Below are positions 19,525 through 56,360 of a stretch of 64,000 bases of DNA, in pieces. Below the pieces are notes generated by a model. It was given only the letters and a program-made list of their open reading frames with translations. It ran no database searches and was not told where the DNA came from. Position 1 is the first letter of the stretch; each line of letters starts with the position of its first letter. The DNA is from Labia minor (taxonomy: Eukaryota > Arthropoda > Insecta > Dermaptera > Spongiphoridae), in NCBI GenBank assembly GCA_963082975.1, contig OY720346.1:44803296-44867295 (forward strand), written 5' to 3'. A program made the position numbers and the translations under genes.

Positions 19525-19925
19525 CTTTTTTTCTAAGAGGAACGGGAACATCTTCAAAAAGATATCACAGGATAGTGTCAGGTTCTGGAAAGTTTCAGGG
19601 ACTGACTAAACTCCCCTACCTTTCCTGGGCACCCGAGTATTTCTACCTGTTACAGGAATATCCTCATTGATGTTCATGTCCTGTCGTTCCTTTTATGTGA
19701 GCAACCCAACTTATTTCTATGATGTGCCCATCCAGAACACTCGGCCTTCTTCGTAGTTACGGAAAAATTTCGCTCTCTCTCCTATCCCAATCCTGAGTAG
19801 GAAAGAGTTGAAACATCCATGTTTGCTCATGAATTGGGTTATGTGGAAATCCAGGTCTCCATACTTCCTCTTAAGCCAGGATCCTTGATAAAAATAAGCT
19901 GTGGCCAGCCACAGAACTGACCGAA
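19525..19925 (-). pseudogene. Decayed LINE C-terminal fragment
   Basis: In broken minus-strand frames one reads a YGDLDFHITQFMSKHGCFNS-like stretch followed by FLLRIGIGE, a pattern conserved near the C-terminus of I/R1/jockey-group LINE proteins. Stops and shifts are present. The higher GC content stands out from its surroundings. Confidence 0.6.
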
Positions 19926-25609: not shown

Positions 25610-25886
25610 GATTGATAAATTGAATTAAAAGAAATTAAAAACAAAATTCAATATAAATAAAATTAAAACCAATCCGGATGATGGTTTTTAATTGAATGAG
25701 AAATGGTACACGCACAATTTCGATTATATTATGCCTATATAATCTTTTATCTGGCGTGAACTCTACTTCATTAATTAAAGTAACATTTGCCAAAAAAAAA
25801 AATGCTGTGAAGTTAGATTCAAATAATGAGCGCTTAGTTTTAAAGTTAAATTCAATAGTATTATAATCATTATAATTTAATATGAA
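25610..25886. other. 5' flank of the aminotransferase gene
   Basis: AT-rich sequence upstream of the GOT2 start; promoter and 5' UTR are expected here. No unambiguous TATA or initiator can be assigned. It runs into the tandem duplication at 25887. Confidence 0.35.
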
Positions 25887-26149
25887 TCTTATCTTATTAT
25901 GCTAGCTAAAATTGTATATATGTATTTATCTATATATATTGGTTCTCAAAAACCGCTCTAACGATTTTTTTCAAATTCACACTAGATATAGTATTTATAA
26001 AGAAAAATTAAGTTTTATTGATGATATCTCTTGAAACATACAGCTTCATTATTAATTTCTTAATTGAAAATTATATATGGAAAACGTCAAAATTTTTAAT
26101 ACTGCCTGCTAAGACAGTAAAAAATGACAATTTTTTATCTAAATACATA

Positions 26150-26212
26150 TAGTCCAGCGGTTGGACTGATGTTTTAACGAGTGGATTTCGTCGGTTCGAA
26201 ACTCGCCGGGTG
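26150..26212 (+). repeat. tRNA-derived SINE-like head (copy 1; copy 2 near 27512-27573)
   Basis: An A-box-like TAGTCCAGCGG at 26150 and a B-box GGTTCGAAACTC at 26193 are spaced about 43 bp apart, as in RNA polymerase III promoters. A D-arm-like pair AGTCC...GGACT is visible. The acceptor stem does not close, so this is not called a tRNA gene. Confidence 0.5.
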
Positions 26213-26752
26213 AATCGTTATTTAAAAATGAAAATAATGATTTTGTTATTTTTTTTTCTTTTTATCTATTGTTTACTTTTTAATAAATTACTATTCTATA
26301 TTTATTTATTCATTGTTCTTTTATTAATAAAGTTTTAGATAGTTTTATAAGTTTTAATATTTTTTCAATAAAATATTATTCAATATATTTATTAATATTA
26401 TTTTATTTATTATTATTGAGTACCCGAAGTTCCATTCATTTTAATCAGATTGATGCAATGATGCAACAGTTAATAATTGTAATATTGTAATAAATTTCTA
26501 TCTTGAAAATTGTTACATATTATTCAGGATATTTTAAAAACTATTTCTTTCTTTAATTAATATTCATTTTTTCTATAAGTCAGATATATTTCCAAATATT
26601 AAATAATTTTTGAAGTGAAAACTTCTTTAGCGGCGTTGAGCACTTTTGCGGGATGGGGAAAAAGTATAGAACTCGCGTGATCGTGACCAACACCATGAAA
26701 CCATCTGCTTTCAAATTTCTTATAACAGAGCGCGAAATTTGAATTGTCATTA

Positions 26753-26903
26753 GAACTGTTTTATAAATTATCTCTAACATATAAATATATATTTATTATG
26801 TAAAGTTCATTTCATATATACATATATAATCAAAATTATACGAAATGAACTTCACATAATAAATATATATTTTATGTTAGAGATAAGAATTATAAAACAG
26901 TTC
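26753..26903. repeat. 151-bp palindrome (copy 2 at about 28116-28266)
   Basis: Arms of about 65 nt run from gaactgttttataa and ctctaacata to gttcatttc, and return as gaaatgaac, then tatgttagag and ataaaacagttc. Small mismatches and a 20-nt AT-rich centre remain. Such a structure can extrude a hairpin or be a foldback MITE. Confidence 0.75.
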
Positions 26904-28608
26904 GTATTGCAATATTTTAAACAAAGTTGTGTATTTATATATATATAAATATAAGTTACAAATTTGTTTAAAATATATGTTTAAAATAATATATAAGTTA
27001 TATATATATACATGCATATGAAATTCATCTTTCTCGTGAAATAGCGCGAATTTCGTCTGTTTTAAAATTTCTTACGCAGAAGTTTTCACTTCTGTCGGCC
27101 AGTCCCACGACTGCCAATTTTGCTTTTTTAATTCCGAAAAGCTGCAAAGCACGTTTTTTTGTCTTTAGTTTGTTTTATAACCACTTGGGGCGCTAAACAG
27201 TTTTTCAAAAAAACACTATAGAAAAAAAATATATGTACCTATATATCTTATCTTATTATGCTAGCTAAAATTGTATATATGTATTTATCTATATATATTG
27301 GTTCTCAAAAACCGCTCTAACGATTTTTTTCAAATTCACACTAGATATAGTATTTATAAAGAAAAATTAAGTTTTATTGATGATATCTCTTGAAACATAC
27401 AGCTTCATTATTAATTTCTTAATTGAAAATTATATATGGAAAACGTCAAAATTTTTAATACTGCCTGCTAAGACAGTAAAAAAATGACAATTTTTTATCT
27501 AAATACATATAGTCCAGCGGTTGGACTGATGTTTTAACGAGTGGATTTCGTCGGTTCGAAACTCGCCGGGTGAAACGTTATTTAAAAATGAAAATAATGA
27601 TTTTGTTATTTTTTTTTCTTTTTATCTATTGTTTACTTTTTAATAAATTACTATTCTATATTTATTTATTCATTGTTCTTTTATTAATAAAGTTTTAGAT
27701 AGTTTTATAAGTTTTAATAATAAATTTTCAATAAAATATTATTCAATATATTTATTAATATTATTTTATTTATTATTATTGAGTACCCGAAGTTCCATTC
27801 ATTTTAATCAGATTGATGCAATGATGCAACAGTTAATAATTGTAATATTGTAATAAATTTCTATCTTGAAAATTGTTACATATTATTCAGGATATTTTAA
27901 AAACTATTTCTTTCTTTAATTAATATTCATTTTTTCTATAAGTCAGATATATTTCCAAATATTAAATAATTTTTGAAGTGAAAACTTCTTTAGCGGCGTT
28001 GAGCACTTTTGCGGGATGGGGAAAAAGTATAGAACTCGCGTGATCGTGACCAACACCATGAAACCATCTGCTTTCAAATTTCTTATAACAGAGCGCGAAA
28101 TTTGAATTGTCATTAGAACTGTTTTATAAATTATCTCTAACATATAAATATATATTTATTATGTAAAGTTCATTTCATATATACATATATAATCAAAATT
28201 ATACGAAATGAACTTCACATAATAAATATATATTTTATGTTAGAGATAAGAATTATAAAACAGTTCGTATTGCAATATTTTAAACAAAGTTGTGTATTTA
28301 TATATATATAAATATAAGTTACAAATTTGTTTAAAATATATGTTTAAAATAATATATAAGTTATATATATATACATGCATATGAAATTCATCTTTCTCGT
28401 GAAATAGCGCGAATTTCGTCTGTTTTAAAATTTCTTACGCAGAAGTTTTCACTTCTGTCGGCCAGTCCCACGACTGCCAATTTTGCTTTTTTAATTCCGA
28501 AAAGCTGCAAAGCACGTTTTTTTGTCTTTAGTTTGTTTTATAACCACTTGGGGCGCTAAACAGTTTTTCAAAAAAACACTATAGAAAAAAAATATATGTA
28601 CCTATATA

Positions 28609-29073
28609 TTATATATTTATGTATTATTGAGGAGCACAAGTTCATTAATTTTAATCAGATTGATGCAAATGTGTAACATTTAATAATTGTAATAAATAAT
28701 TAAAGAATTGTGTATCAATATTTTTTAAAGGGTAGAGCGAGAGCTCGGTGTCCCAGGTATTAATATTACCAGCCAAATCCAATAATAATGAATCATTTTT
28801 TTTAACTTAAGTACCGAGCCGAGGCTCGGGGTCCCGGTACTTATATATTTATGTATTATTGAGGAGCACAAGTTCATTAATTTTAATCAGATTGATGCAA
28901 ATGTGTAACATTTAATAATTGTAATAAATAATTAAAGAATTGTGTATCAATATTTTTTAAAGGGTAGAGCGAGAGCTCGGTGTCCCAGGTATTAATATTA
29001 CCAGCCAAATCCAATAATAATGAATCATTTTTTTTAACTTAAGTACCGAGCCGAGGCTCGGGGTCCCGGTACT
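28609..29073. repeat. Tandem duplication, two units of about 232 bp
   Basis: The units start at about 28609 and 28841 and are essentially identical (gaggagcacaagttcatt; gggtagagcgagagctcgg; ccgagccgaggctcgg). Each ends in a hairpin with outer stem AAGTACCG / CGGTACTT and inner palindrome CCGAGCC-GA-GGCTCGG. The first part resembles an internal segment of the 1.36-kb unit (tttaatcagattgatgcaa), so the two arrays share an ancestor. Confidence 0.85.
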
Positions 29074-29915
29074 TAATGTTTATGATAGTAGATAAAACGG
29101 TTGAAGAATTAAAAATGAAAAAAAATAAAAATGTATGTGTTATTTTTTTTTATTTTTAGTTAAAATAAAGGAGAATAAATTAAAGTAAAAATATATTAAC
29201 AAAGTATATCCGATATTAAATAAAAAGAAAAGATAAAATGTCAATTTTTAGAGTAGACATGACAGATTGAGAGATGGGTGGGGATAGAAGTAAAATATTT
29301 TTAAAAATTAAAAATTTAATCATTTATTTAATTCTATTTTAATTATTTCATTTTAAATTTATAAAATATTAAATAAAAAAATAGAATTAAATAGGAATAG
29401 TATAATAATTGTATAGAGATTATATTTATATGCCCAAACGTTTTAATGAAAAATACATAAAAGAAGTACAATTCTTTTGATAATAATATCCGCAAAGAAA
29501 TAACTAAAAATAATAAAAATTTATTAATTAATTTATTTAATACTAATTAACAAATAAATTTTTATTAATATTAAAGAAATAAAGATTGGGCCCACTTTAT
29601 AAATGTTTAAAACTTGAATTTGCAATATTCACTAAATGAAGATAATTCATTTCAAAGAAAAGATTGTATGTAATAAAAATTTAAATTTGTATGAAAATAT
29701 TTACAAAATAAAATGTTATAAATATTTATAAATAATTTTATGATATACAAATTATTTGGTGAATTTTTATTTTACAATAAAGTTTTAAAAATTTTAGACT
29801 TGTATTTTATTGTTTTCTTAATTCGAAATGTAATAAAAGGATTGATTATTATATCATTAAATATCTTAATATTAAAAAATAAATAAATATTACTTACATC
29901 TTGATACAAATAACA
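29074..29915. other. AT-rich intergenic DNA, no gene seen
   Basis: A/T-rich sequence downstream of the small gene's stop codon. It probably includes that gene's 3' UTR. No repeat family or frame was recognised. Confidence 0.4.
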
Positions 29916-30972
29916 TTATTTATTTAATCCTTTTTTCTTTAATTTGCTATAGCAATAATTTAATTGATCTAATTCGGAAATGCCCATTCTTTCAACATTC
30001 CTGTTCTTAATTAATAACAATTTTATTTAAAATACAATTATAAATATAATTTGAATTTAATATATTTATATTTAATAATTTTATATTACATTTTTTTATA
30101 AAGTTTTTAGTAGAAGGATCAAAGAAACATTATTATATATATTTTTTGGTATAAACCTTATCTAGTAATATCCGTGATAATATTTCAATTAAGAAGATTC
30201 ATACGATTTTGAATTTTTCATCCATAAATTCATTTCTGTGGGTGGACAACTTTTCGATGAACGACATTTGATAATACTATTTAAAGATTTAGATTTATGG
30301 CCATAAATTGATGAACGAATGAAACAATTTTCTATTTTATTTTGTTTATTACCATTTATTTCTCTAAATAATAAGTTTTTTTATTAATTAAAAAATAAAA
30401 TACATGAAAAATATTTAAACAAACAAATAGGCACCTTAACCATAGGTTAACCAATTTTAATAAAAGTCCAAAATATATTGTATAAATAAGATAAAGAGAA
30501 AATGAGGAAAACATTTTATATATAAAAATAATACTTATATTTATTTATATGTATTGTTTTGTTTTTTGTATTAATAAATAAAGAAAAAGGATATCCAAAC
30601 TTATTTTTTTTAAATTTCTATATGTAAAACTCTTTTAATTTGTTTAATAAATATAAATATTAATAATTTTCAAATAAATATTATGTATATCTGTGTATTT
30701 TACTAAAAGTTTTTATTAAATACATCCCAAATTAATTTTTCTGATTAATTTTGCATTGAAAATATAAATATAAGCGGGGAAAATTTCCGAGCATATTCGT
30801 ATATTTCCGGTAAATTCCGTTTTTCCAACCCTCGAATTTATTTTTTTTTATTGAAAACTCGATAAAATGATATATATAAATCTATTTTGTAATTTAATTA
30901 ATTGTAAAATATTATAATGGTTTATTTAATAAACTTATATCCATTGAATCTTAAAATTTTATTAATTCCCAT
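29916..30972 (-). CDS. Small unrecognised protein, 2-3 exons, divergent from the integrase-derived gene
   Basis: Two 3' exons are well supported. 30363-30205 encodes a stretch containing IENCFIRSSIYGHKSKSLNS, then KSCPPTEMNLWMKNSKS. 30000-29916 encodes NVERMGISELDQLNYCYSK, then LKKKGLNK and a TAA. The donor TC|GTATGA and acceptor AACAG|G join in phase. A first exon at 30972-30935 (MGINKILRFNGY) also joins in phase, giving about 93 residues, but its donor (AA|GTTTAT) is weak. The protein is basic and hydrophilic, with no signal or membrane segment. Its start lies 121 bp from the ATG of the plus-strand gene at 31094, suggesting a shared bidirectional promoter. I do not recognise the family. Confidence 0.5.
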
Positions 30973-31093
30973 ATGTTTTTAATTAATGAATAATTTATTT
31001 CTATCTGCTATTGTCAAAACGAAGAAAAATGTGTTTGATATTTTTATTATTTTCTTTTAATTTATAATAATAAAAGATTAAATTAATTAAACA

Positions 31094-34000
31094 ATGGAGA
31101 TACCTTTAGATTGTGGTTTATTGGTTCCTGTAATTAATATTGAAAATTGCTCACAAGGTATATTATCCATGTTATTATATTCTATTTAGATATAATAATT
31201 GTGTGATGAAAATGTTTTAGCAAATGACCAATCACTAAAAGGAGATTGCATTTATACAGTAGCGTTGGCTAATGATAATTCTTTAGAAACAACCAGGAAT
31301 TTGGTACATATTCCTGTTCAATGTGATAATGAAACTTATCAAGCACTATCACAACAAATCAACAAAGAAACAATCAATCTTGAAGGAAATGATTATTCGC
31401 AACTCTCCAACATTCCTGTTCCAAATAAAGTAATTATACTTTGAAATAAATAAAATATATGTTTTTAGGGCAATATATACCACTGAAAAAAAGACATTTT
31501 ATTTTGTTATCAGAATTAAATTTTGAAAATGAATTAATATATTTGATTTGATTTGATTGATATATTTGTTTTTATACCATTTATTAACACTTGGAATATA
31601 TAAATATATATATACAAATACAAATAATTAAATAGTAATTGATTGTTAAAATTAATTAGACTAAATTGTAGCTTTTTTTATAAACTTTCAAAGTGCCCAC
31701 AAGGAATCTTTTTAAAATTTTTGATTTGTAACTAATTTTCATTTTCCAACGAAGTGTTTCTAATTACATTTGATTTACGATTTCACAGGGAATATTAATT
31801 TATCAATTAAATATAATCTTCCATTTACACATTATTATTATAAATTATAATCTATGGGTATTAAAAAATTATGATATGTTAATGATTATCTTTTTATAAA
31901 ATTTTGTTATTAATTAAGAGCTTAAATACAATAAAATTAAATAAAAAAACTTTCGAATGTAAAGGGAACAAGATGTAAACATTTTTTTAGAATCTAATAT
32001 GTTTTTTAATTTAGAAAGTGAAAGAAAGTAGATTCCATATAATCAAGAAACTGAACTTAATTTCCCATTAAAACTATTTTTAAAATTTTCAATAAAAACA
32101 AAATTTTTATGAGTTTTATTTATTTTATTTTTAATGTAAAATTAAATATTTATAATATTTCTAAAGGAAAATACTCATATTACTCAAGAATTAATGAACC
32201 AGACTCAAGATCGATTAATAAATAATACTTCTGAAGAAGAACAACAGCAATCATTACTCGACCCATCGGTACTTTATTTTAATGAAATTTATAATTATTT
32301 ATTAAATAAAACATTGCCAGATGATTCTTCACCATCACATATAAAAACAATTAAAAGAAGAAGTCATCAATATTGTATTAAAGATGGAATATTACATTAT
32401 GGGATTAAATCACCACGGAAAGTGATTATTTTAAAAAAAGATCAAATAACTCTTTTAGAAAATGCCCATGTTGAAAATCAAACAGGTAATTTATTATGAA
32501 ATATATAATTTCTTGCAGAAACTGATTCTTATTAGAATTCTATTATGATGTTATTATTTTTTTTTCACCTTAGATAATCATTTAAATTCAAAAAAAATGT
32601 TTACATTATTATCCAAAAATTATTTTTGGAAAACACTCGCATCGGATATAAATAAATTTATAAAAGAATGTAATCAATGTGGTGATCCATTAAAAAATAA
32701 ATCGGTGACAATTTCGAAAAATGAATTATTAGATCCTGCATTGAGTCGAGTGTGGCGTGAAGTTGAATTACAACTTTTGGGACCCTATACTTCTACAATA
32801 TCTCAAAATGAATATATAGTAGCCTTAATTGATCCAGCAACTGAATGGATCACAGCACGGCCTTTGCCCAGAGAAAATTTAGCAACACGAATTGCAGCAT
32901 TCATTTATGAAACATTTATATTAATTGGTTTCACTAAGTTACATATATGTGGTACAACACAAATTTTAGTTGAACAAATCGATAAGGCATTTAAAGAATA
33001 TCTCGCAGATTTAAATGATTTTTTAGCACATTTTATTGTCGATTTAAATGTGCTTAAAGTTGAACGATGTGAAACAAAATGTCCGTGGGCAAGAGATTTA
33101 TTATTAGAATTTGTTAGTAATTCCAATTCAAAATGGGATGAGAAATTGAAACACTTTGTATTTGCTTATTGTTGTACATTTACAAAAAATACAATTGGAT
33201 CGCCATTTTTAAGAATGTTCAAACGTTTGCCATACAACGAATCAGAAGAAAATGCTGAAAATATTCCAATTGGGAAAAATATAAAAAAATATGGAATCAA
33301 GGTAGGCAATTCATTTATTATTAATTTAACATTTTATATTTTATTTTAAAATAAATAAATACTATTTTCAATAAAAAATCAATTTCCAAAAAAGGGAGAT
33401 TTCTTAAACCCTAAAATTTATATTTTTAAGTAAAAAGTACTTTAATAATTCATTGGATTACATTTAAAATTTATATCCTTAAACTCTTTTATATAATCAA
33501 TTGTACACTCATTTTATAATTTTTAAAATCCAAAATAATTGTTAAGAAAGTACTTTAATAATACAAAATAATATTTAAAAAAATATTTAAAAAATTTTAC
33601 TTTAATCAGTTTAAAATCTTTGATTTAAATTAACAACTTTTAAATATACTTACTTTTTTTAAAAGAATTCTTTCTGATTTGACCATTCATAATTTTTTAG
33701 ATAAAAATCTATTTATATAATAAATTAATTTTAATTAATATTTAATTTTTAATACAATTTATTAAATATTTTTTTACATTTCGTTTTTTTCTAACCAAAC
33801 AATTTTTTTTTATTATTTTTAACTATTTTCCTTTGGGTGTGGTTTTATTATTTCTTTGTATTTTATTGGTTCCCCTCTATTTTTTTTAATTTTGAAAAAG
33901 CATATCCTCCCATATTATATACCAATGATTATTTAAAAGAAAAAAATCAGCCAATGAGAAATGACATATAAATTATATTCGACCAATAGTAAAAAATAAA

Positions 34001-37000
34001 TTTATATTTACATTTAAAACTCTATTTTTTTAAATTTTATCACATTTAGAAAGTATAATTTCTTTTTTAGTAAATTTTATTTATCAGTTTATCCAAAAAA
34101 ATAAACCTTAATTTTTAAATTAACTAAATTATTAATATAATTTAACATAGTTAATTAATCTTAATTATTTATTTAATTCTTAATTTTAAGGTTTTATGAG
34201 AGACTTTTTCGGTTATATTTTTTTTAGTTTTTTCTTTAATTTTATTTATTTATTTATTTCTACAAATTTATGGGTGGTAAAATTAAATAGATATGTATTA
34301 AACAACATTTAAAATTTAATACATTAATTAATCAATTTAATTGTCCTTATTTCAATGACAAAAATAAAAATTGTTTTCTATTTTAAAGAACCGTTTATTT
34401 AAGTCTTTTTTATGAATGAAAATTAAATTTCCTAATTGATTAATTATTTTTAGTGTTCATTATGTAAAATGGAATTTTCAAATAATCATTCATTAAAAGA
34501 ACATGAAAAATCTATTCATGAAAATTTTCCACAAACTAAATTAACTGAAAATTCAAAAAATCAACAATTATCCAATATAAAAGTTATAATAGATAATGAA
34601 GAATATGTTGACGATCCAGATATTATTCAAATGGATACGAATATGATTAACGAAAATTGTAATGAAATAAATATTGATCGAAATCAACGTAAAGCAAAGA
34701 TTCGTGCAATATCAACATTTCGAAAGAATAATGAAAATATTTTACCGACAGGTATTATTATTATTATATTTTAATTATTTAATTTTAATATCTACTAACA
34801 ATATTTCATAAATACTCCCATATGATAATGAGCATCTAATCTAAATTATAATTGTTGAAAAATTAATATATATATTATTTATTGTTTATATATAGATATC
34901 ATTTTATTATTTTTTTAATTATTAATTTTTAAATTAATTTTAAAAAATGTTCTAACATATGACCTTACACTTTTCCTTTCATCCAGAATGCCTCTCTACT
35001 CCCGTCCAAGCAGTCCTTGGCTACTCTTCCATTAACACACCTCTTACACTGCACTCAGGTGATCAATAGTGAGATCTCAGTAGTTTTGAGAAACATATAT
35101 GTAACTTATGAGCGCTTGGAACTGTCGAAAGCATGATACAATGTCCCATTCATCAAGCGATCCTATTTCAATTGCATGTAAAATGGTTGAACGTGAGGTT
35201 TTCAATATTTGTTTTAATATTTATTTATTCCCCTATTAAAAAGGAATTTTTATGCTTATATATTACAATATACAATATATTTTTATATAAGTATATATTG
35301 ATTATTTATTTATTTTGTTTTAAGGTGGTTTAACGAGATTGGAAAAACTCATGGTCTTAGCAAGTAAAAAAGATAAAATTTCAATTCAAGGTGAAAATTC
35401 TGATGTCAAATCAAATACGGTCGCTGCAGTAAAAGAGATTTTAGCAGCAACAAAAGAAGAAAGAAGATTTAGAGGTAAATATCATAAATATTCTTTGGAA
35501 ACTCAAGATCAAATGGTAAAGTATGCAATTGAAAATGGTAGCCAAAAGACTGCCTATCATTTTTCTCATATTCTGGGAATCCCAGTAAGTGAATCAACTA
35601 TAAGAAATATTGTAAAAGCATTTCGTAGTTATAGTAATATTTCACTTTCCCTACGTGAAGAAATTGCACAATATGCACTTCATTTTGGTTCAGAAAGTGC
35701 CGCTAAACATTATTCGGAACGATTGAATAGGGTTATAAAAAGATCCCATGTACGAAGATTTGTTCAAACTTATTTACATTTTAATTCCTCTAACGATACA
35801 TCAATTAATTCTTCTTTTGATAATTTAGAAAAGAATAAAAAAACAAAAATTGTTTATACATCAGAAATGAAAGAGAAAATTGGTGAATATGCATGTCGAA
35901 CATCAATTATGGAAACCATTGAACATTTTAGTAAAATATTACCTTTTCATATTAAACCAAGTGCTGTTAGAAGATTTCGTAAATTATATATGGATCATCA
36001 TAAAGGTACATTACTTTCCCTTCCACAACAACAAACTCATATGGAACATCAATTAGAAACATCATCCAATAATAATAATAATAATAATACAAATGAACTA
36101 ATCAATCCACCGATTAATCCAATAAATAATTTTTCTGAACAAACGGACCTATTGAATGCCCAATTAAATGAAACAACAAATAATACTTTACCAATAATAC
36201 AACAACAACATTATACAACATTAACAAATTCTTATGAAACTTATAATAATTTACAATCCGGTTTTATTTTTACACATCCTTATAATGTATCATCTGAATT
36301 TTCTAATTCGGATAATAATTTTCTTAATCCAAATGAATCCACCTCCAATGAAAATAATCCAATACTTCATATCGATGATAATGATTTAAATGATTGTGGT
36401 GATAAATTATCAGATTCACAAAATCCAATGAATGATTATCATTTAGGGAATACGAATAATGATTTTATTGTGCCAACAAATTATGATACGTTAACCGAAC
36501 CATCGACCATTGTAAATAATAATGATAAAGAACAAATGAATGTAGTAGAAAAGAATATAAAAAGAAAAAAAAGAGATAAAACAGAATCATCTTCAAAAGG
36601 GAATCATGATAATAAAGATAGTAATTTAGATAATTCAACAACAACAATGACCAATACAACAACAACACCACCAAGTGCCAAAATAAATAAAAAATCATCA
36701 CGTGGCGTTTATACGGTATATACACCTGAATTACGTGCTGAAATGGGTAGATACGCAGCTGAACATGGCAATCAACAGACTTGTATCTATTTTCAAAATT
36801 TATTAGGTGTATCCGTACCGGAAAGTACAATAAGAGGTCTACGTGATAAATATTTAGCTAAAAAACAAGGTGGCGAACCTGAGCCTAATGCATTGGATTA
36901 TAGCCCAAGAGGACGTCCAATGCGTTTAGGCAAATATGACGTCACTGTTTTAGAATGTATTAAAGATCTCATTAGGGGTGGTGAAAAACCATCAGCCTTC

Positions 37001-37141
37001 TTAGTTATAGCCACCGCCCGACAAGTATTAATGCAACAAAATCCCTCACTATTAGAGGAAAATGGTGGCAAAATCAAATTAAATATTAGCTGGGCTAAAT
37101 CATTTCTTAAACGAAATGGCATTAATAATAAAAATTCATAA
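31094..37141 (+). CDS. Integrase-derived zinc-finger and HTH-repeat protein (6 exons)
   Basis: Exons 31094-31157, 31221-31429, 32167-32485, 32574-33301, 34454-34751 and 35325-37141 join in phase with GT-AG introns into 1144 residues. Residues about 180-240 carry an H..H..CxxC integrase zinc site (KECNQCG). Residues about 255-420 follow a Ty3/gypsy-type integrase core, but the positions of the DDE triad read as non-acidic residues (LQLLGPY; ICGTTQ; CPWARDLL). A canonical C2H2 finger (CxxC-x12-H-x4-H) follows at about 441-462. Four repeats of about 55 residues (about 588, 642, 712 and 1002) share a [EQ]YA..[NF]G...A..HFS..L pattern and look like HTH units. An Asn/Thr/Gln-rich linker separates repeats 3 and 4. 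The C-terminal 80 residues resemble a CENP-B-like DNA-binding segment (SWAKSFLKRNG). It is inferred to be a domesticated nuclear DNA-binding protein, related in part to GIN1-type proteins. Confidence 0.8.
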
Positions 37142-37926
37142 ATTAATTTGGTCCTAATTGAGATTTATCAAAAAAAATAAATAAATAAATGTTGTCTATT
37201 TTTATATACCTCTATTAAAATATACATCTTTATAAAAAATGAACAATATAATCCTTTTTTCTAGTCAATTCGCAATGAAATTATTTAATTTGTATTTGTA
37301 TTTTTTTTATAATTATGGCTTATAATTATTAATTTTATATTTTTTGTTAAATAAAATTATTTATTATTATTATTAAAAGTTAATTCGTTTTATATATATA
37401 TATATATACAAACCTTAAATGAAATATATCATATTCCACATATCCATATTCCATTTCAGACCATTATTTATTTAAGTAAAAAAAAAACTTATATTATTTA
37501 TTTCATTTCATCATCGTTCATTCACCATAAATTAACAAATATATAATAATTATTATTTATATTATATATATTTTATACTTATATTGATATCGAGTTACCA
37601 TAAAAAAGTTTGTTTTTAATTTGATTTATTTTTTTAGTATTTTTACTATCTGTGTCTAATTCAATCTTTTTCTAAATTCTTTTCTTATCCGAAAATTGAT
37701 AATCAGTTAGTTATATATCCATTCAAATAATATTATTTTCAATTATACATTGAATCAATTTTGCTATTTCGATAATAAATTATCTTCTCTATTTTAGGAA
37801 TAAATTAAATTAAAGATAAATTAAGAAACTCTAAATACACTTCCTAGATTAAGGATAAATAAATAAAATTCTAAACATATATTTTTAAATATTCTTATAT
37901 ATATTATGTATCTATATATAGAGGAG
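37142..37926. other. 3' flank, AT-rich, no gene seen
   Basis: Probable 3' UTR of the preceding gene (aataaa-like motifs at 37175-37190) followed by A/T-rich spacer with (TA)n at 37393-37408. Confidence 0.4.
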
Positions 37927-38517
37927 AAGGTGTAAATATGGGCTATGGTGAATATATGGGAAAATAGAATTTTAGGTTTGCTTGATACTCTATTCTCATG
38001 GCGATCATTCGAGGTGCTCTAAACATTTTAGCAAATTTTGAGGCCAGCCTGCTTTTACAGGTTCGTACATTCTATTTTTTCTTCCCATGTTATGCTCACA
38101 TAATTCATTGCATATGCGTAAAGCGTTTTATTTAATTTTTAAACTTAAAGATACTTTTCGAAATATATATTGAAACCCAAAAGATAAGGTGATCAATATT
38201 TTCAAATTGGCGTGATGGTGTAAATATGGATTTGTCGATAATCGTCTAAGAAAAATGAACTAAAAACCTGATTTACTGGCAATTTTGTGCAACGACCCAA
38301 TTTCAAGTGATAATATTTCTTGTTTTGTAATTAAACATTTAAAACACATCAATGTTTTTTCATTTGCCATTTTTAAAACAGTATTAACAGTAGTCCATTT
38401 TTTCACCATTGCAATCATTGCTCAAATATTGATTTCATAAAAAAATAGAATATTTAAAAAATTAAATGTATTTATAAGTAACTTTAATACAAGTAAACTT
38501 CATTCCTGCAACATAGA

Positions 38518-39974: not shown

Positions 39975-41477
39975 TTAAATTTGTAATTTTTTTCTTTCTC
40001 TCTCATTGAATTCAATTTCAATATCATTTAAATGTTTTTTAACAAGAAAAATTAATTTCTCATTTTCATATTTTTTCGCTACTTTCAATGATTCTTTAAG
40101 ATATTTTTTAGCTTCATTTAGAAGTTCTTTTTCGAAATATAACATTCCTAAATTCATTAGAATTTCTGCCTTTTCAGGCATTTCAATTTCTAATTTTTGT
40201 GAAATATCTAAGGATTCTTTAAAAAATTCAATTGATTTATCGAATTCTTTTATTTTATAATGTATATAACCCATATCATTTAATAAAAGAACATTCATTT
40301 CATGCATTTTTCCAAATAATCCAATGGCTACTTCTTGTGCATTTAACATTAAATTTAATGCCTCTTTTGATTTATGCATTTTCTCTAAAAATTTTCCATA
40401 ATGATGTAATGTGATAGACCAAAGAAATTGTATATTCTCATCATGAATACCACTTTCTAATTTTTTTTTTAATGTGTTATAACAAAAGAGATAACCATCA
40501 AGTGCTTTATTATCATTTAATTCATTATAAATATCTGCTAATTTTAAACTTATATTAATTACTTTTAAATCATCTTTTTCTGTACCAGTTGATAATAATC
40601 GTTGCAAAATTTCTTTAAATAATTTCTCTGCCTTTGTATATTGTTCTTGGTCATATGCTAAATTAGCGAGAAGGTCATAAGCATATGTAATTGCTTCAAA
40701 ATTTTGTTGTTCTTGTGCTGATTTCAATGCCAAATGAAGCATACGCTCTGCTTTAAAAAATTCACCTCTCTAAAAAGATTTCAATCATATATTTTTCAAG
40801 ACTTCACTAAGATAGATATTATTTAAATAGATTCATTATATATGTTATTATTATAATTTATAGATATTAAGTTTTTTAAAAAGATGAACAAATAAAATTT
40901 TTTAATATTAAGAATTATGTATTTGTAACATGGAGACATTTTATGTTTTTAGCACGGCATAAAAAAGGTTGGGAAACACTGTTATAAAGAGATGTTTATT
41001 ATGCTATTATATATGTTAAGAAAGATATATACGGTTAGATATTGAGTGATTTAATTTAATTTGCTATTTATATTATATTAAAATATTTAAATTGTAAGTA
41101 AATGAGGGAGCTAGCTAGATCCTATTAAAATTTATTTTAAGAAATTAAATTATTTTTACCTGAATAAGCAAAACACTTCTTTTTAAAAGAGTTATTGTAG
41201 GATTTTCTTCTTCTTTGTCTTTATTAAAAAACCCAAAAATCCCACCAAATAAATAATATCTAAAATTATTTTGTGATGATTTATGTGTACATTTTTGATA
41301 ATAGTTCAAACGATTTCCCCCTTGATAAGATAATTGTAAATTATTAAAAAAATAATTAGAATATTTTATTCGTTTATAATTTATTATATAATTATATCGT
41401 TCATAAAATATTAATAATTTATTTATTTTCAATTTATTTTGAATGATAAGATTAAAAATACTTTTTACAAATGACAT
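39975..41477 (-). CDS. TTC19: TTC19-like mitochondrial TPR protein, intact copy (2 exons)
   Basis: TTC19 is an inner-mitochondrial-membrane TPR protein that supports respiratory complex III by clearing Rieske-protein fragments. Exon 1 is 41477-41160 (106 codons) and exon 2 is 40769-39975 (264 codons plus stop), with a phase-0 GT-AG intron, giving 370 residues, close to the usual length. Exon 1 is basic and Asn/Tyr-rich with a short hydrophobic stretch (YYLFGGIFGFF) before an acidic KDKEEENP, as in family members. Exon 2 carries TPR-like helices: EFFKAERMLHLALKSAQEQQ, AITYAYDLLANLAY, LFKEILQRLL, then repeats such as LNDMGYIHYKIKEFDKSIEF and MNLGMLYFEKELLNEAKKYL. The 3' third lies outside the duplicated segment, so only this copy is complete. 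Lack of an N-terminal comparison is the main uncertainty. Confidence 0.85.
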
Positions 41478-42048
41478 AATTAATTAATAGAATAATACTG
41501 ATTTAATTCAAACGCAAAAGTGTTTAAAATTATTGCTTAATATTTATATAATTTTCCTAATTTATTTTATTTTTACTTTCGTGATTATATTTCTTACACA
41601 GACGATCCGTTCTTTCTTGGTTATAATTTGCCTTCATATTTCAATTCAACAATTCTAATAAGACAGATGTCGCTTTGAATAGTTACGATTTTTTTTCAAT
41701 AAAATAATCCAAATATTTTTATATTTTTTTTTTAAATTTTCACTTAAATTTTAATTTATTGTTTAATGATAACATTTACACATTCATGCAATTTTATATA
41801 TTGATATTTATATTTTTTTTAATTTACTTAATAAATTAATTAAATTAATAAAATATATATAAAATTCCTCAACACATATTTTATATTTTAAATATTATAA
41901 AATGAATTATATTTCATTATATAATATATAATATAATTTAAAAACTATTTTATTATATAAGTTAAATAAAATAATTAGAGCAATAAAAAAACGAGAACAA
42001 AATGTGAAAGTGAAAATTAAGAGGGCGAATGTGATTGAGAGAAGAGAA
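41478..42048. promoter_or_regulatory. Intergenic space between divergent TTC19 and SDR starts (copy A)
   Basis: About 570 bp separates the two divergent start codons (41477 minus, 42049 plus). It should contain both promoters and 5' UTRs. It is duplicated almost unchanged at about 56646-57216. A short upstream ATG (42002) is followed at once by TGA. Confidence 0.5.
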
Positions 42049-45000
42049 ATGGATATGGCATACTTTTCTTCTTCTGAAATGATATTAATTTATTTTGTAT
42101 TATTTTTGTTTGTTTTGTTAATTGTAATTAGGAAATTATTGGAAAGAAGATGGAAACAATATAACATTACAATATCATTGGAGAATAAAGTGTTTCTTAT
42201 TACAGGAGCAAATTCAGGGCTTGGTAAAGTAACAACGAGAGAACTGGTGAAAAATCATGCAACAGTTATAATGGCATGTAGAAATATGAATGCAGCTAAA
42301 GAAACGATAAATGAAATTAGAAAATCAATTAAAACTGGAAAAATAGTATAATTATTTATATAATAATAAATAAATTAATAATAATAATAATATTAATATA
42401 TTAACCAAATAAATTATATTTTAGATTCCAATGGAATTAGATCTTGCCTCATTAAAGTCTATAAAACATTTTTCAGAAAAAATTTTAAAAACTTTTCCTA
42501 AAATTGATGTGCTTATTAATAATGCTGGTGTTTGTTTTCCACCAGAAGTTAGTGGAAAAACATTAGATGGATATGAAATTAATTTTGGTGTTAATTATTT
42601 AGGACATTTTTATTTAACTAATCTTCTATTGGATCTATTAAAAAAATCTGCTCCATCAAGGTATTTTAAAATTTTATATATTTATATATTTTAAAGTATC
42701 TAATATTCCATTAAAAATATATTGGAATGATAGTTATGTAACAGATCTTAAAATTTGAAATCTAAATTATAACAGTATTATAGCGCAAGTTTCTGCCAAC
42801 TGGGGCTGATGCCACATTTGCCGCCCTAACACCCATTCACACATTGAATAAATTTTCCTCCCCTCAAAATTCACTAACAAGTTTTTAATTTGACAATTCC
42901 ATAATTAACAACTACAAATAATTTTAATGAAAAACATTTAATATACAAATAAACATTTTTAATTAGTAAAAATATTGAAACATTTATTTAAATCATTCTG
43001 AGACATAAAAAATAAGATTACTATGAATTTGTAAATTATTTATTTAATTATTTAAATTTGAGAATTTAATCAATTCAATTAAAATAATAATTCCATTAAT
43101 ACTCACATATGTGATTGTATATATAGTATTTATATTTAACTTATATAAATAAGATATTTTTGAATTATTTAAAAATTAATTTTTTCATCTTAAAATATTT
43201 ATTTATTAAGAATTATTAAGAAATATATATTCTATAACTTAAAAATTTTTTATAATTTTTTAAAATAAATTTCTTTTTTTGAGTAGGAGCTTGGCTTAAT
43301 ATAGAAATACAATTCACGATAATTGCTCATTTTTACAAATAAAGTGCATCTCCCCCCACACACACTCACGAGGGCAGGTTAGTAAGTCTGTGACTTTTGG
43401 AATGAAACACACATTTTTGGATAAAAATTGTTTTATTTTTCAACGTAGTCTCCTTTGAGCTCTATATACTTCTTCCAAGGTTCTCCAATTTTATTATCGC
43501 TTCCAAAAAATAAGATTTGTTCGGAACATCAAAATAGGTATTTGATTGTAAGATGATTTCATAGTTGGAGTCAAAATCTCTTTCTGCCGAGCCATTTCTT
43601 CCAACACGAAATAGTCATCCGGAGCTAAACCCGGAGAATAGGGCAGATGAGGAAGTAATTCGTATCCCAATTCATGGAAATTCAATTTTTCCCATTTTCT
43701 TTTCAAATCACGAGGAAGTTAAATAAAAACTAAAAGACCCAGCTGGTTCAAATTTCGACAGGAGTCAGCTGATAGTTACTTTCTGACAGGAGCACTGTTG
43801 TCATTTGATTTAAGATACGGGAAATTCAAAAAATCACGGACTTATTGACCTGCCTCGAATATTGCCATGAATAAAAATTAATATAAGAAAAGACTATTTT
43901 AAGATATAGAGTATAAATAATAATGCTATTCTAATCTTTTACTAGCTAATATTAATCGTTCGTTTCTCCATGGATGTTCGTAAAAATACCTACATATACA
44001 ATTTACACATTATTTTTTTTAATATCTTAATATACAGTTAATTAAGTATATTAATATTATATTTATTTTCTATTTAAATTTTATTTAAGGATTGTAATAA
44101 ATGGCTCTGTTCTTCAAGAAAGAGGAAATATTGATTTTGGTAATTTTCACGGCGAGAAACAATTACCTAGAATAACGGATGTTTGGGATAATCCATTATA
44201 TAACAATTCCAAATTAGCATTATATTATTTTGTTAAAGAATTTATAAAACGAAACAGAAATATTAGTGGTGTTGATATTTATATATTATGTCCAGGATTT
44301 GTTTTTACCAATATTGGTCAATATCTTAAAATGAAATGGTATGAATATGTAAAATTATTACCAAGAATATATATTCATATGAAAACACCCACACAGGTAT
44401 TTATAGGAGACAATTTTTTATTTTATTTTATTTTTTTTATTAACTTATTTATACATGTATTTATATTTAAAAAACCAATTTCTAACAATTATTTTTCTAT
44501 TTATGATGTCTGAATAAAATAAAATTTCATGAAAATAAGATTTTTTGTGTTTCTTGTTTTATATATATATATAAGTCATAAGAATACAAGAATTCGTTGG
44601 TGAGACTTTAACGAAAATTTTTACTATATATTTATATACACAGTATTAAAATTTAATAGTGGAGATGGGATAGAAATATTTATATCCTTATTTAGGTATA
44701 TAATTTCAATTTCGGACAAATTGGAGAAATAATATATTTTATAATAATTTCCTTTTATTATTTATTTTAATTTCTTTCTTCATCTTCTAATATTTTATTT
44801 ATTTCTTTATTCTGACAATTATTATTTTTTGTCCTGATCCTAAAATACAAAATATGTATTTAAAGTAAAAATAACATATTACTATATAAATATTTTATAG
44901 GATAATAAATAATCTAAATATATTTTTGAAAAATTATTATAAATAAATGATATAACTTTACTAAATCAAGACTTATCGAATAATTATTAGACATTTTATT

Positions 45001-45378
45001 AACAATTAAAGAGATAATAACCAATAAATGCTCTATCATTTATTGAATTTGAATTTAAAATTGAATTTTTCCAAAAATTGGATTAGATATTACATGATTT
45101 TATAGATCATTATTTTTATTAACAAGTACATATCTATATATATAATTTATACTTATAATTATAATTGATTAAATATAATAATAAAATTAAATATATTAAT
45201 GAATATTTCACTGTTTCAGGGAGCGCAAACAATCATAAAATGTGCTACAGATCCAAGTCTAGAAAATATTACTGGATATTTCTTTGAAAATTGTGATATT
45301 TATGATCCGAAAATTGAACTAGACAGCAAAATTGCATCTAAACTTTGGAAAATAAGTGAAGAATTTTGTAATAAATAA
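42049..45378 (+). CDS. Membrane-anchored SDR, retinol-dehydrogenase-like, copy A (4 exons)
   Basis: Exons 42049-42345, 42425-42660, 44090-44396 and 45220-45378 join in phase to 332 residues, the length of RDH11-14-type enzymes. An N-terminal membrane helix ([17 protein letters not shown]) precedes basic residues. The classical SDR marks are all present: cofactor loop [29 protein letters not shown], catalytic Ser in INGSV, YNNSK (YxxxK) and PGFVFTNIG. It is inferred to be an NADP(H)-dependent oxidoreductase of lipophilic alcohols/aldehydes on the ER or a mitochondrial membrane; the substrate is not known. Intron 2 contains a mariner relic. The start at 42049 gives the proper anchor; an in-frame GTG at 42004 is not needed. 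A near-identical paralogue lies at 57217-60017. Confidence 0.88.
43368..43857 (-). mobile_element. Mariner relic in SDR intron 2, copy A
   Basis: The ends agggcaggttagtaagtc and gacttattgacctgcct are imperfect inverted repeats. The minus strand encodes the mariner fragment [20 protein letters not shown] followed by DDYF. Together with flank 43143-43366 it is the inverted counterpart of 38518-39420. Confidence 0.8.
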
Positions 45379-45965
45379 GATTATTATTATTATTTCAATA
45401 ATTCAATTTTTTAAAATTTTTTGTAAATTTGAAAATATATGTAATAAATATATTAATATTTTATTAAGTATATTTATTAATTTACATATATTTATTATTA
45501 AGTTATTAATCAGTGTGTTACGGACTATTTATAACAAAACTTCATTTTTTACAGTTACACCTTTTTCTATTTTTCTAATCAGTTTCTATTCTCCTCTATT
45601 AGCCTAAAAATGCTTATTGAATTTATTATGTATTTATTTTAATTGAAAGAGAAAAAAATTAATTCATCTCTCTTTAGGTTTTCACCTGTTATCGCCTTAT
45701 GGAAAGAACTCAGAAAAAGATTTGAACGGTGATTAAAAGTAATAGAAAAAGAGATGAGATGATTTCATAGTGAAGGTTGATTATTGAGGCCAAGAACTTT
45801 CAAAATACACAGTGATACATTGATTGTCATTTTTAAAAACAAAAATTAAAATAACTGATTAAATAGGAGAAAACGTTATTGATTGAAAACAAAACTCGTT
45901 GGTTTTATGCAATAAGTATATTTAATTAAGTATATTCAATTCACATTCATTCAATTTCATTCATA
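45379..45965. other. 3' flank of SDR copy A, exon-like shreds
   Basis: No complete gene is visible. About 45675-45735, after tctctttag, reads open for a short HLLSPYGKNSEKDLNG-like peptide, which may be an exon remnant. Compared with copy B (60018-60850), a segment of about 240 bp is missing after 45757. Confidence 0.35.
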
Positions 45966-46206: not shown

Positions 46207-47590
46207 GTTTAAATTTTTTTTTCTTATGAATATAAAATATGTCTGATTGTTTGATTTCTAAATTTATTAAAGTATCATTAGTTACATAATAGCCCATATA
46301 AAAATTCTCCGTGGATTTTTGGTACATTTTTTGAACAAAAATTTTCTTTATTGAATATCAATTTTGATTAAGTACATGTTGACCATTTTATTATGTGCAT
46401 TTAACATTAAATTTAATACCTCTTTTGATTTATGCATTTTCTCTAAAAATTTTCCATAATGATGTAATGTGATAGACCAAAGAAATTGTATATTCTCATC
46501 ATGAATACCACTTTCTAATTTTTTTTTTAATGTGTTATAACAAAAGAGATAACCATCAAGTGCTTTATTATCATTTAATTCATTATAAATATCTGCTAAT
46601 TTTAAACTTATATTAATTACTTTTAAATCATCTTTTTCTGTACCAGTTGATAATAATCGTTGCAAAATTTCTTTAAATAATTTCTCTGCCTTTGTATATT
46701 GTTCTTGGTCATATGCTAAATTAGCGAGGTCATAAGCATATGTAATTGCTTCAAAATTTTGTTGTTCTTGTGCTGATTTCAATGCCAAATGAAGCATACG
46801 CTCTGCTTTAAAAAATTCACCTCTCTAAAAAGATTTCAATCATATATTTTTCAAGACTTCACTAAGATAGATATTATTTAAATAGATTCATTATATATGT
46901 TATTATTATAATTTATAGATATTAAGTTTTTTAAAAAGATGAACAAATAAAATTTTTTAATATTAAGAATTATGTATTTGTAACATGGAGACATTTTATG
47001 TTTTTAGCACGGCATAAAAAAGGTTGGGAAACACTGTTATAAAGAGATGTTTATTATGCTATTATATATGTTAAGAAAGATATATACGGTTAGATATTGA
47101 GTGATTTAATTTAATTTGCTATTTATATTATATTAAAATATTTAAATTGTAAGTAAATGAGGGAGCTAGCTAGATCCTATTAAAATTTATTTTAAGAAAT
47201 TAAATTATTTTTACCTGAATAAGCAAAACACTTCTTTTTAAAAGAGTTATTGTAGGATTTTCTTCTTCTTTGTCTTTATTAAAAAACCCAAAAATCCCAC
47301 CAAATAAATAATATCTAAAATTATTTTGTGATGATTTATGTGTACATTTTTGATAATAGTTCAAACGATTTCCCCCTTGATAAGATAATTGTAAATTATT
47401 AAAAAAATAATTTTTTTTTTTTTTTTTTTTTCCCTTTATTTTATTTACAATCAGCTCAGTTTTGGAGCTATAAGTAAATTTGATAATAATTTATTTACAT
47501 ACACTCTCACACTCAGACACTCATACATTCATTCATTCATTCTCACATTCACACATCACTTGAAGAGAAAGTCGGCCATCGACGACGTCC

Positions 47591-50314
47591 CTATTTTAGT
47601 TTCACCCTCCAGTTTTTTGATATAGCACGCTCCTCAATATCGAGAACGTGGGTCTTCTTAAGTCTCCTGTAGACTTCACTGTTGTCTAGGAGAGCAATCG
47701 CTGATACATTTGGATGATTTTCTAGTTTTTTAATATGTTTGATGAATGACTGATGGATCACTTCTCTGACTGGTGGGACGAGAAGGTCATTGTGCAAGCT
47801 TGCATTTGAGACGTACCAGGGTGCATTTGCTATGCATCTAAGTATTTTGGATTGCACTCTTTGTATTTTATTTATATTGGACTCGCTGGCAGTTCCCCAG
47901 ATTTGACATGAGTATTGCCAGATTGGCTTAAGCATTGACTTGTAAAGCAGTACTTTTGTTTTAAGTGTAAGTTGTGAGTTTTTTCCCAACAGCCAATACA
48001 TTTTTTTATATTTGATGTTTAATTCATTCTTCTTTTTGTCTATGTGAATTTTCCAGTTTATTTTCGAATCAAGATACAGTCCAAGATACTTCACAGAGTT
48101 ACTTTGGGGAATGATTTGGGAATTTAGGTAAACGGATGGACATATGATTTTTCTATTTGTGAAAGTGATGTGATTCGATTTGGTCTCGTTTACATGAATC
48201 CTCCACCTATGAAACCAATTTTGGATGGTGTCAAGTTTTTCTTGAAGTTTGTTCGAAGCAGTACCTGGATCTGAGCTGGTTACTAGTATGGAGGTATCAT
48301 CAGCATAGGTAGCAATGAATGAGTCTTCACTTGTTGGTATGTCCGCAGTATACAGAGAATAAAGAAATGGTCCAAGAATGCTGCCTTGGGGAACTCCTGC
48401 ACGTATTGGATGATATTGAGATAATTCATTTTCTACCCGAACTTGGAACCAACGATCTTGAAGGTATGATTTAAATATCCAATAGTAATGGTCAGGAAAT
48501 ATTTTTTTTATTTTATATAAAAGTCCTTGATGCCAAACTTTGTCAAATGCTTGTTTTACATCAAGAAACACGCCGGAGCATATTTTCTTTTCTTCCAGGG
48601 TTGTTTGGATAACGTTAACAATTCGATGAATTTGTTGAGAAGTAGAGTGTTGGCGTCTAAATCCATATTGATGATCGGGTAATATTTCGTCAATTTCGAC
48701 ATCAGCCTTTAGTCTCGTTAAAATAAGTTTTTCAAAGATTTTTGATGTTTGGGGAAGAAGACTAATTGGTCGATATGAGGAGACTTCCGACTCTTGTTTT
48801 CCTGATTTAAGAATCATGATAATATGAGCAATTTTCCATTGAATTGGGAAATTGCGAGTTCTTAAAATTGCATTGAATATTTGAGTGAGTAGAAGTATTC
48901 CTTTTTTCGGGAGTTTTTTTAAGACCTCAACAGTGATTAGGTCATATCCGGGGGATTTTCTCCTGTTTGACTCGTGCTTAAGAATATTTTCGATTTCTTT
49001 TGAGGAGAATGATTGGATTTGAGGAGATAACTGTAATGGAGAATCCAGAAAGTTTTCTATTTCTAGATTCTCATGGTTTGGACAAGTTTGGGGAAAAGGA
49101 TTGAAAGTATATTCCAAATGTTTAGAGAAAGTTTCAGCTTTTTCTATATTTGTTCTGGCCCAAGTATTTGTATCGGTTTTTAATGGGGATACAAATTGCT
49201 TGGGTCTTTTTAAATATTTAGTTGCATTCCAGAGAGAATGATCATTATTTCCTTGAGGAGATAAATTTGAAAGGAAGTCTTGCAAAGTATCGTTTTTGTT
49301 TTTTATAATTAGGTTCTTAAGTTCTTTTGAAACCCTATTGAATGCCAGTTTATCTGGTGGGTATTGACTCCTTTGCCATATTTTTCGAAGTATTCTTTTC
49401 TCTTTCAGTTTTTCTTTAATCTCCAGTGGGTAATTTATTCGCTTTTCTTGATTGTCTATTTTTGGTGTAGATACCCAAGCTGAATCATGTATATTTTTAT
49501 TGAAATATTCAATTGCGTGTTCAATATCTTCTTCGGTTTTAAGGGGGATTTTAGTGTTAAGATTATCTTCAAGATTTTGTTTGAAAAGAGCCCAGTTAGT
49601 CTTTTTATTGCATATTGTAGGGGTTCTTTCTTTTTTTATAATCATGGAGCTTATAGTAGCAATCACTGGGGTGTGGTCAGAGCTAAGATCCAAACATTTT
49701 TCGATAGTGTAATATGAATTTGTCAAACCATTTGATACAAAGAAATCCAGTAGATCGGGCAATCTACTGGGATCTGAGGGCCAATAAGTTGGCTTACCAG
49801 TAGAAATAATATTGTAACCTCTCGACAAAATTGTTTTAAGCAGGTTTCTTCCTTTGGGTGTTATAACTCGAGAACCAAATGATGTGTGTTTTGAATTGAA
49901 GTCACCTCCAACTATGAATTTTGGACCAAGTGTTTCAAAGAAATTTTCAAAATTTTCTTTGGTGATGGAATGACGAGGAGGGCAATAGAGAGCGCTTATT
50001 ACAAGATGTGTTCCATTTATGCCAGTAACTTGTATTGATGTGGCTTGAAGAAAGTTTTTTTCATATTTCTCCAATTCTAGGTGATATATTGTTCTTTTAA
50101 TGAGAATTGCAGTCCCTGCATGGGCCGTACCATCAGGATGGAGTGTGGTGTAACAGTTATATCCAGGAATCGAGAAATAGCTTTTATTTGTGAAATGCGT
50201 TTCGGATATCAATAGTATGTCAATTTTTTCATTATGTAAGAAGATCTCTAATTCGAGACCTCGTTGTGCTAAACCATTAGCATTCCAGAGTGCTATTCTA
50301 AAAGAATCAGCCAT
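47591..50314 (-). CDS. Jockey ORF2: AP endonuclease and reverse transcriptase
   Basis: 907 residues with no interruption. The N-terminal apurinic-type endonuclease shows LWNANGLAQRG, the catalytic ISETH, GGDFNSKHTSFGS and SSDHTPV. The reverse transcriptase shows SYRPISLLPQTSKIFEKLI, motif A FLDVKQAFDKVWH, motif B GVPQGSILGPFLYSLY and motif C ATYADDTSIL. A C-terminal tail follows with no RNase H, as usual for jockey. Its ATG overlaps the end of ORF1 by 8 bp (AATGGCTGA arrangement), a known way to couple translation. All key residues are present, so it may be active or recently active. Confidence 0.93.
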   Translation of the reverse strand: MADSFRIALWNANGLAQRGLELEIFLHNEKIDILLISETHFTNKSYFSIPGYNCYTTLHPDGTAHAGTAILIKRTIYHLELEKYEKNFLQATSIQVTGINGTHLVISALYCPPRHSITKENFENFFETLGPKFIVGGDFNSKHTSFGSRVITPKGRNLLKTILSRGYNIISTGKPTYWPSDPSRLPDLLDFFVSNGLTNSYYTIEKCLDLSSDHTPVIATISSMIIKKERTPTICNKKTNWALFKQNLEDNLNTKIPLKTEEDIEHAIEYFNKNIHDSAWVSTPKIDNQEKRINYPLEIKEKLKEKRILRKIWQRSQYPPDKLAFNRVSKELKNLIIKNKNDTLQDFLSNLSPQGNNDHSLWNATKYLKRPKQFVSPLKTDTNTWARTNIEKAETFSKHLEYTFNPFPQTCPNHENLEIENFLDSPLQLSPQIQSFSSKEIENILKHESNRRKSPGYDLITVEVLKKLPKKGILLLTQIFNAILRTRNFPIQWKIAHIIMILKSGKQESEVSSYRPISLLPQTSKIFEKLILTRLKADVEIDEILPDHQYGFRRQHSTSQQIHRIVNVIQTTLEEKKICSGVFLDVKQAFDKVWHQGLLYKIKKIFPDHYYWIFKSYLQDRWFQVRVENELSQYHPIRAGVPQGSILGPFLYSLYTADIPTSEDSFIATYADDTSILVTSSDPGTASNKLQEKLDTIQNWFHRWRIHVNETKSNHITFTNRKIICPSVYLNSQIIPQSNSVKYLGLYLDSKINWKIHIDKKKNELNIKYKKMYWLLGKNSQLTLKTKVLLYKSMLKPIWQYSCQIWGTASESNINKIQRVQSKILRCIANAPWYVSNASLHNDLLVPPVREVIHQSFIKHIKKLENHPNVSAIALLDNSEVYRRLKKTHVLDIEERAISKNWRVKLK

Positions 50315-51614: not shown

Positions 51615-51866
51615 TTTGAGATGGGGGGCCCAGGCCCCTACTTATTGTTTAAAAACTATTCGAAAAAAAAAAATTTTATTTTTTTTTTTAAATATTTATT
51701 CTAATGAATAAGTGAAATGAGAAAGAATTATATATATAAATATATATTAAACTATTTATAGACACTGATCCGCTTACTTCTAAGGTTCAATGAGAACTAA
51801 AAAAAAAAAATAATTAGAATATTTTATTCGTTTATAATTTATTATATAATTATATCGTTCATAAAA

Positions 51867-55122: not shown

Positions 55123-55127
55123 ATCAA

Positions 55128-56243: not shown

Positions 56244-56360
56244 TAACTAAAGATGGCAATAATAATAGAATTTTAAATCAATCGCTCTTAGATAATATTT
56301 AAATAAATTACATAATTTTCAAAAAATAAGGTGACTTAACTTGACTTGTCGTTTTAAATC

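Follow-up and report, generated by a model that had tools for sequence, protein, structure and literature searches.

A probable domesticated integrase gene of Labia minor carrying a C2H2 pattern and four helix-turn-helix-like repeats

A long coding unit in the genome of the dermapteran insect Labia minor raises the question of whether an integrase-like sequence is here part of a mobile element or of a host gene, and of what a protein built in this way might do. The unit occupies positions 31094..37141 of a 64,000-nucleotide window (the whole stretch of DNA that was analysed) on contig C4 (OY720346.1) of the 604-Mb, 71-contig assembly GCA_963082975.1. All of its features lie on the plus strand and are numbered from the first letter of the window. 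Judged by its sequence, this is very probably a domesticated integrase-derived host gene to which a module of several helix-turn-helix (HTH) units has been added. With fair confidence, we further regard it as a single-copy gene whose product would be a nuclear, multi-module DNA-binding protein with a front part from a Ty3/gypsy- or Ginger-type integrase.

Homology to integrases was found both at the zinc site and in the core. A Pfam scan matched Integrase_H2C2 (PF17921) in the exon 4 region at E=4e-10, and the H-H-C-C site described in the initial annotation is indeed present: its ligands H192, H200, C230 and C233 align with H, H, C and C in 16/16 element rows from the same genome. The rve core, the other family proposed for comparison with exon 4, was absent from the Pfam listing of the protein at E up to 10. 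A hidden Markov model built from the genome's own integrases covered residues 174–415 of the protein (model positions 10–244 of 249) at E=8e-31, a value computed for a database of one protein.

The catalytic positions were located in a MAFFT alignment of 17 rows, consisting of the gene and 16 own-genome element integrases, which was also used for tree building. The rows were drawn from 22 element loci (L002, L003, L035-L054) and the Ty3/gypsy-type element of the window; L003 and L050 were dropped as near duplicates, the matched stretch was too short in L038, L042, L043, L044 and the window element, and one of two frames was used for L051. Six of the 16 aligned elements were scanned against Pfam, and four of them carried reverse transcriptase (RT) and/or RNase H while two listed integrase domains only; among all seven element frames scanned, five carried RT and/or RNase H, and L036 and L041, with integrase domains only, are of unproven type. 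The three catalytic columns read D, D and E in every one of the 16 element rows. In the Labia minor gene the first Asp is replaced by Q264 (32771..32773) and the second by G324 (32951..32953), while the Glu column retains E364 (33071..33073). The triad is not intact, as the initial annotation had proposed, but its description of all three residues as non-acidic holds only for the two Asp columns. Complete loss of the triad was ruled out, with BLAST, HMMER and MAFFT all pairing E364 with the catalytic Glu, although the HMMER posterior is only middling at this position. An AlphaFold2 model of exon 4 alone was too poor for superposition of the core (predicted local distance difference test score, pLDDT, 36), and the triad positions rest on sequence alignment. 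Loss of two metal ligands abolishes canonical integrase catalysis; because two of the three are replaced here, the core should be catalytically dead and should neither cut nor join DNA.

Copy number and flanking sequence distinguish the gene from the integrases of mobile elements. When exon 4 was searched against the genome (150 of 560 candidates scored), the 128 matches included one identical copy, the exon itself, and the other 127 showed at most 33% identity. A search with the last HTH-like repeat (R4) and the tail gave three matches, all inside this gene. Positions 18000-47000 were then searched with the long frames from the 22 element loci and from the gypsy element of the window as queries. 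No RT or gag match was found beside the gene, and matches were limited to exon 4 and a few adjoining bases; the sole exception, at 19777-19881 and over 11 kb from the gene, was a 35-residue part of an element frame. A gapless search of 30000-38500 detected no direct repeats of at least 24 nt. Its six inverted pairs, AT-rich and 25-56 nt long with 71-92% complementarity, do not bracket the gene: in no case do the two arms lie on opposite sides of it. On these grounds (the copy number of exon 4, no RT or gag neighbour and no bracketing repeat), membership in a multi-copy element was ruled out.

The source of the integrase part is less sharply defined. In the 17-row tree the gene falls outside every element clade, its branch measuring about 3 changes per site, and the placement of a row this long is unsure. 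Its identity to the genome's elements is about 19-33%. Directly read, the stretch before the zinc site is L-P-Y-Y (L141-P142-Y160-Y169), compared with Y/F-P-Y/F-Y/F in Ginger1; G-x-L/I-x-Y-like stretches also occur in the aligned element rows. With 120 residues around L-P-Y-Y as query, a genome search listed 150 rows: the gene itself, followed by weak ones starting at E 0.0017. The integrase part may come from a Ty3/gypsy- or a Ginger-type source, with no element family specially close. Its five modelled introns, its single copy and the replacement of two catalytic residues are what is usually seen in a domesticated gene. An integrase-derived host gene, as first suggested, is thus supported by its single exon 4 copy, its modelled introns, the lack of RT or gag matches and of bracketing repeats in the searched flanks, and the loss of two Asp with the zinc site kept, while the source lineage stays Ty3/gypsy or Ginger. 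Scans of the viral contigs of IMG/VR by protein and by motif pattern, made with parts of the gene other than R1–R3 and exons 1–3, yielded no confirmed relative, a result that says little about animals. Their best weak row, L065 (E 0.005 over 27 residues), sits in an unrelated open frame. The same database gave no relative when the window's gypsy integrase was the query.

The coding anatomy is well defined. We rebuilt the six-exon model as 3,435 nt encoding 1,144 residues with zero internal stops; all five modelled introns are GT-AG, with lengths of 63, 737, 88, 1152 and 573 bp. Exon 1 (31094..31157) encodes residues 1-21 plus 1 nt and is preceded by an in-frame TAA two codons upstream of its ATG. 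Exon 2 (31221..31429) encodes an N-terminal region that scored 0.47 bits per codon and gave no family in the Pfam scan. Exon 3 (32167..32485) holds the L-P-Y-Y stretch (32314-32400) and H192, the first His of the zinc site; the remaining ligands and the integrase-like core are encoded by exon 4 (32574..33301). Exon 5 (34454..34751) begins with the C2H2 pattern, and exon 6 (35325..37141), a 605-codon open frame, carries the stop codon as well as the HTH-like parts. About 35 bases past the stop lies a polyadenylation-like AATAAA (37176..37181), the first of six AATAAA/ATTAAA motifs in the following 300 bases.

In a leave-one-out test, in which each exon was scored with the codon usage of the other five, the modelled frame was the best-scoring in 6/6 exons (0.30-0.53 bits per codon), whereas 500 random non-coding segments scored -0.29 on average and 0.28 at most. 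At the stop frequency of nearby non-coding DNA (0.083), an open frame of 605 codons would arise by chance with a probability of about 1e-23. GC content by codon position is 39/33/15%, compared with 15-24% in the introns. Because the modelled frame outscores the others in all six exons and lies above the 500-segment background in each, the coding unit is very probably real, far beyond chance, and a single spliced protein is its predicted product. The six in-phase exons of the initial annotation were recovered in full, their splicing being a model. Intron 5 has a GC content of 24%, compared with 15-19% in the other four, a difference whose source is seemingly 34960-35200, perhaps an inserted repeat.

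C-terminal to the integrase part, the protein carries several further candidate DNA-binding units. At residues 441-462 (34454-34519) a C-x2-C-x12-H-x4-H pattern can be read directly (C441, C444, H457 and H462). The canonical C2H2 finger of the initial annotation corresponds to this residue pattern; in Pfam every C2H2 score fell below the cut-off (best E 0.012), and a PDB sequence search returned two BCL11A C2H2 fragments at E ~1. The four repeats of about 55 residues noted in the initial annotation proved to be homologous. R1 (residues 589-644), R2 (644-695) and R3 (714-767) lie at 35471..36007, with pairwise z of 9.3-10.9 among the three, and R4 (residues 999-1055) lies at 36701..36871; in 6/6 pairs, 0/2,000 shuffles matched the pair score. 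R4 was modelled by AlphaFold2 as a three-helix domain. The HTH families to which the repeats might belong did not emerge from Pfam, which listed no CENP-B_N, BrkDBD, HTH_psq or ABP1 for R1–R4. Between R3 and R4 runs a linker (36008..36661) with 48% N, Q, S and T, which is likely disordered; within it, the basic stretch NIKRKKRDK (residues 950-958, 36554-36580) could serve as a nuclear localisation signal.

R4 is followed by RGRP (residues 1068-1071), a linker directly before a putative second HTH of CENP-B/Tc5 transposase-like type (about residues 1071-1142, 36917..37132). The matches of this tail to HTH_Tnp_Tc5 (PF03221) were all sub-threshold (E 0.019, 0.004 and 0.00096 in three scans), with a best score of 19.5 bits against a cut-off of 22.2. 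AlphaFold2 modelled the tail as two helical domains with a mean pLDDT of 76. When this model was submitted to Foldseek, the CENP-B-DNA structure 1hlv came first and some of the rows that followed were transposase DNA-binding domains; 0/63 rows reached E up to 0.001. The tail initially annotated as CENP-B-like is a candidate of that kind, with a family match below the Pfam cut-off and CENP-B as its first structural row. No DDE_1 transposase domain was listed by Pfam for the whole protein at E up to 10. Of two further PDB sequence searches, one gave six rows, headed by a designed repeat protein at E 0.0015 across 12 positions with no stretch passing alone, and the other a single row at E 0.91.

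We hypothesize that these parts work together as follows. With the H-H-C-C site kept and two of three metal ligands gone from the RNase H-like core, the integrase part would be inert and would contribute nucleic acid binding and oligomerisation. The C2H2 finger and the HTH-like array would provide sequence recognition and site selection, R4 being paired with the second HTH through the RGRP linker in the manner of pogo/CENP-B-type DNA-binding domains, and NIKRKKRDK would direct nuclear import. A role as a DNA-binding regulator is plausible in view of the C2H2 pattern and the HTH-like and basic stretches. More tentatively, and with doubt on our part, the protein could be a chimera whose two DNA-handling parts are both of transposon type but unrelated to each other: an inert retroviral-type integrase would act as an oligomerising scaffold for a four-unit HTH ruler ending in a CENP-B-like bipartite domain. 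If so, its targets would be DNA sites that are repeated or set in arrays, and its role would be architectural or that of a factor binding satellites or transposons. The binding sites of the protein would tell transposon ends, satellites and host promoters apart as targets, and an integrase core beside a defined second DNA-binding module offers a direct route to what a dead core is good for.

The strongest structural doubt about a single host protein is whether exon 5 and exon 6 share one transcript, and it weighs against the reading that we favour. There could be two neighbouring genes, an integrase-C2H2 gene made of exons 1–5 and a single-exon multi-HTH gene in exon 6. All HTH-like parts are indeed encoded by exon 6, where an ATG follows about ten codons after the start of the open frame; the exon 5 frame is open for only about seven codons beyond its donor, and the junction between the two is a model. 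We nevertheless consider such a pair unlikely, given three observations that each count weakly against it: the exon 5 donor and exon 6 acceptor join in phase, the exon 6 frame begins right at an acceptor-like TTTTAAG, and the gap is 573 bp long at 24% GC. Stop-bounded frames of 57 and 73 residues lie in the gap. Alternatively, the locus might be a mobile element instead of a host gene, either a lone relic or one of low copy number, such as a Ginger-like DNA transposon or a gypsy fragment, with a frame open by chance or through recent arrival. Its clear integrase homology is compatible with this, and Ginger1 transposases, which carry YPYY, H2C2, DDE and GPY/F, can be low in copy number and can have introns (as some do) and additional C-terminal domains (PMC2836005; this and the following papers are cited from the accessible part of each source). 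The loss of two catalytic Asp while 3.4 kb stay open across five introns nonetheless makes this highly improbable, together with the single exon 4 copy, the lack of a bracketing repeat in the gapless search and the fact that no OTU or Ulp1 family was listed in the Pfam scan of the protein.

Two other readings concern the role and the age of the gene. A dead integrase might disturb live Ty3/gypsy integration complexes inside the cells where it is made, with the HTH units aiming at element DNA, which would make the protein a genome-defence factor. Many copies of integrase in the genome lie in long open frames, often of about 1,500 codons, and have up to about 30% identity to the protein, and an anti-retroviral role has been proposed for CGIN1 (PMC3424704). 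The low identity to the elements and a tree in which, as far as so long a row can be placed, no element family is specially close argue against such a role, and we hold it to be improbable. A single-copy host gene could at the same time be an old, widely conserved arthropod gene that is already in databases as an uncharacterised protein, in which case its architecture would not be peculiar to this lineage; we give this somewhat less than an even chance. Its C-terminal motif pattern presumably resembles that of certain invertebrate proteins.

Several known systems share parts of this architecture. GIN2 (Gin-2), an integrase-derived vertebrate gene, is likewise a multi-exon host gene with H-H-C-C kept and DDE partly eroded (PMC3424704; PMC2836005), to which the Labia minor gene adds the C2H2 pattern, the four HTH-like repeats and the CENP-B-like tail. 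An arthropod parallel is Imagin of malacostracan crustaceans, also a multi-exon gene with an H2C2 zinc finger and a defunct integrase core. In the kuruma shrimp, Imagin has 585 residues that include a disordered region, is located between two exons of MMUT and is without the conserved D and E (PMC12863088), whereas the Labia minor protein has 1,144 residues, an HTH-like array and a retained Glu column. GIN1, SCAND3, KRBA2 and NYNRIN are rve-derived mammalian genes with introns (PMC3257199). In NYNRIN/CGIN1 an endogenous-retrovirus-derived integrase part is fused to a copy of KIAA0323, again giving a host fusion protein, for which an HTH array goes unmentioned in the accessible part of PMC3424704.

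On the HTH side, CENP-B, JRK and POGK combine a first HTH with HTH_Tnp_Tc5, POGZ having the second only (PMC7386202). The Labia minor tail, with 1hlv as its top structural row, may have a similar layout but differs from pogo-type proteins in its lack of a listed DDE_1, its fourfold first HTH-like unit and its sub-threshold Pfam score. Because an rve superfamily signature is reported in both CENPB and HTH-Psq transcription factors (PMC10027918), the joining of integrase and HTH-type domains has a parallel; a layout with C2H2 and four repeats is not described for these factors in the accessible text of that source. A gene combining integrase, C2H2 and multiple HTH units was not found described in a search of full-text literature, with most subscription journals outside its scope. 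Domesticated integrase genes as a general kind are known, and the whole combination is probably undescribed, while orthologues may sit uncharacterised in protein databases. The domestication of transposable elements is amply documented for vertebrates, but reports from non-model organisms, and above all from crustaceans, are few (PMC12863088).

The surrounding window contains recent segmental duplications, and the integrase gene lies outside them. Regions 41402-45963 and 56570-60838 are duplicates, aligning as 41402-44500 / 56570-59668 (99.3% identity), 45028-45762 / 59667-60400 (99.9%) and 45758-45963 / 60629-60838 (97.1%), with a long interspersed nuclear element and a gypsy element between them. 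A piece of a gene assigned to TPR by Pfam is duplicated at 40336-41357 / 46394-47412 (99.6%). Upstream of the integrase gene, region 25886-29084 holds a 1.36-kb tandem duplication (25886-27246 / 27245-28609, 99.6%) followed by two 245-bp copies (99.2%). Long open frames on the minus strand at 1170-4772, 47591-51641 and 52110-56246 represent two non-long-terminal-repeat retrotransposons and one Ty3/gypsy-type element. The former carry RVT_1 in Pfam, one of them also an endonuclease and PRE_C2HC; the latter carries RNase H and rve, its first frame being without a Pfam match. To judge from their open frames, these retroelements would be young. Elsewhere in the genome, three integrase matches on contig C2 (C2:17092128, 17115425 and 17138722) lie exactly 23,297 bp apart with one internal TAG each, a pattern that suggests either a large tandem array or a repeat in the assembly. 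Four further matches at C9:49983765-49995128, exactly 3,590 bp apart with one internal TGA each, form a tandem array of partial retroelement units.

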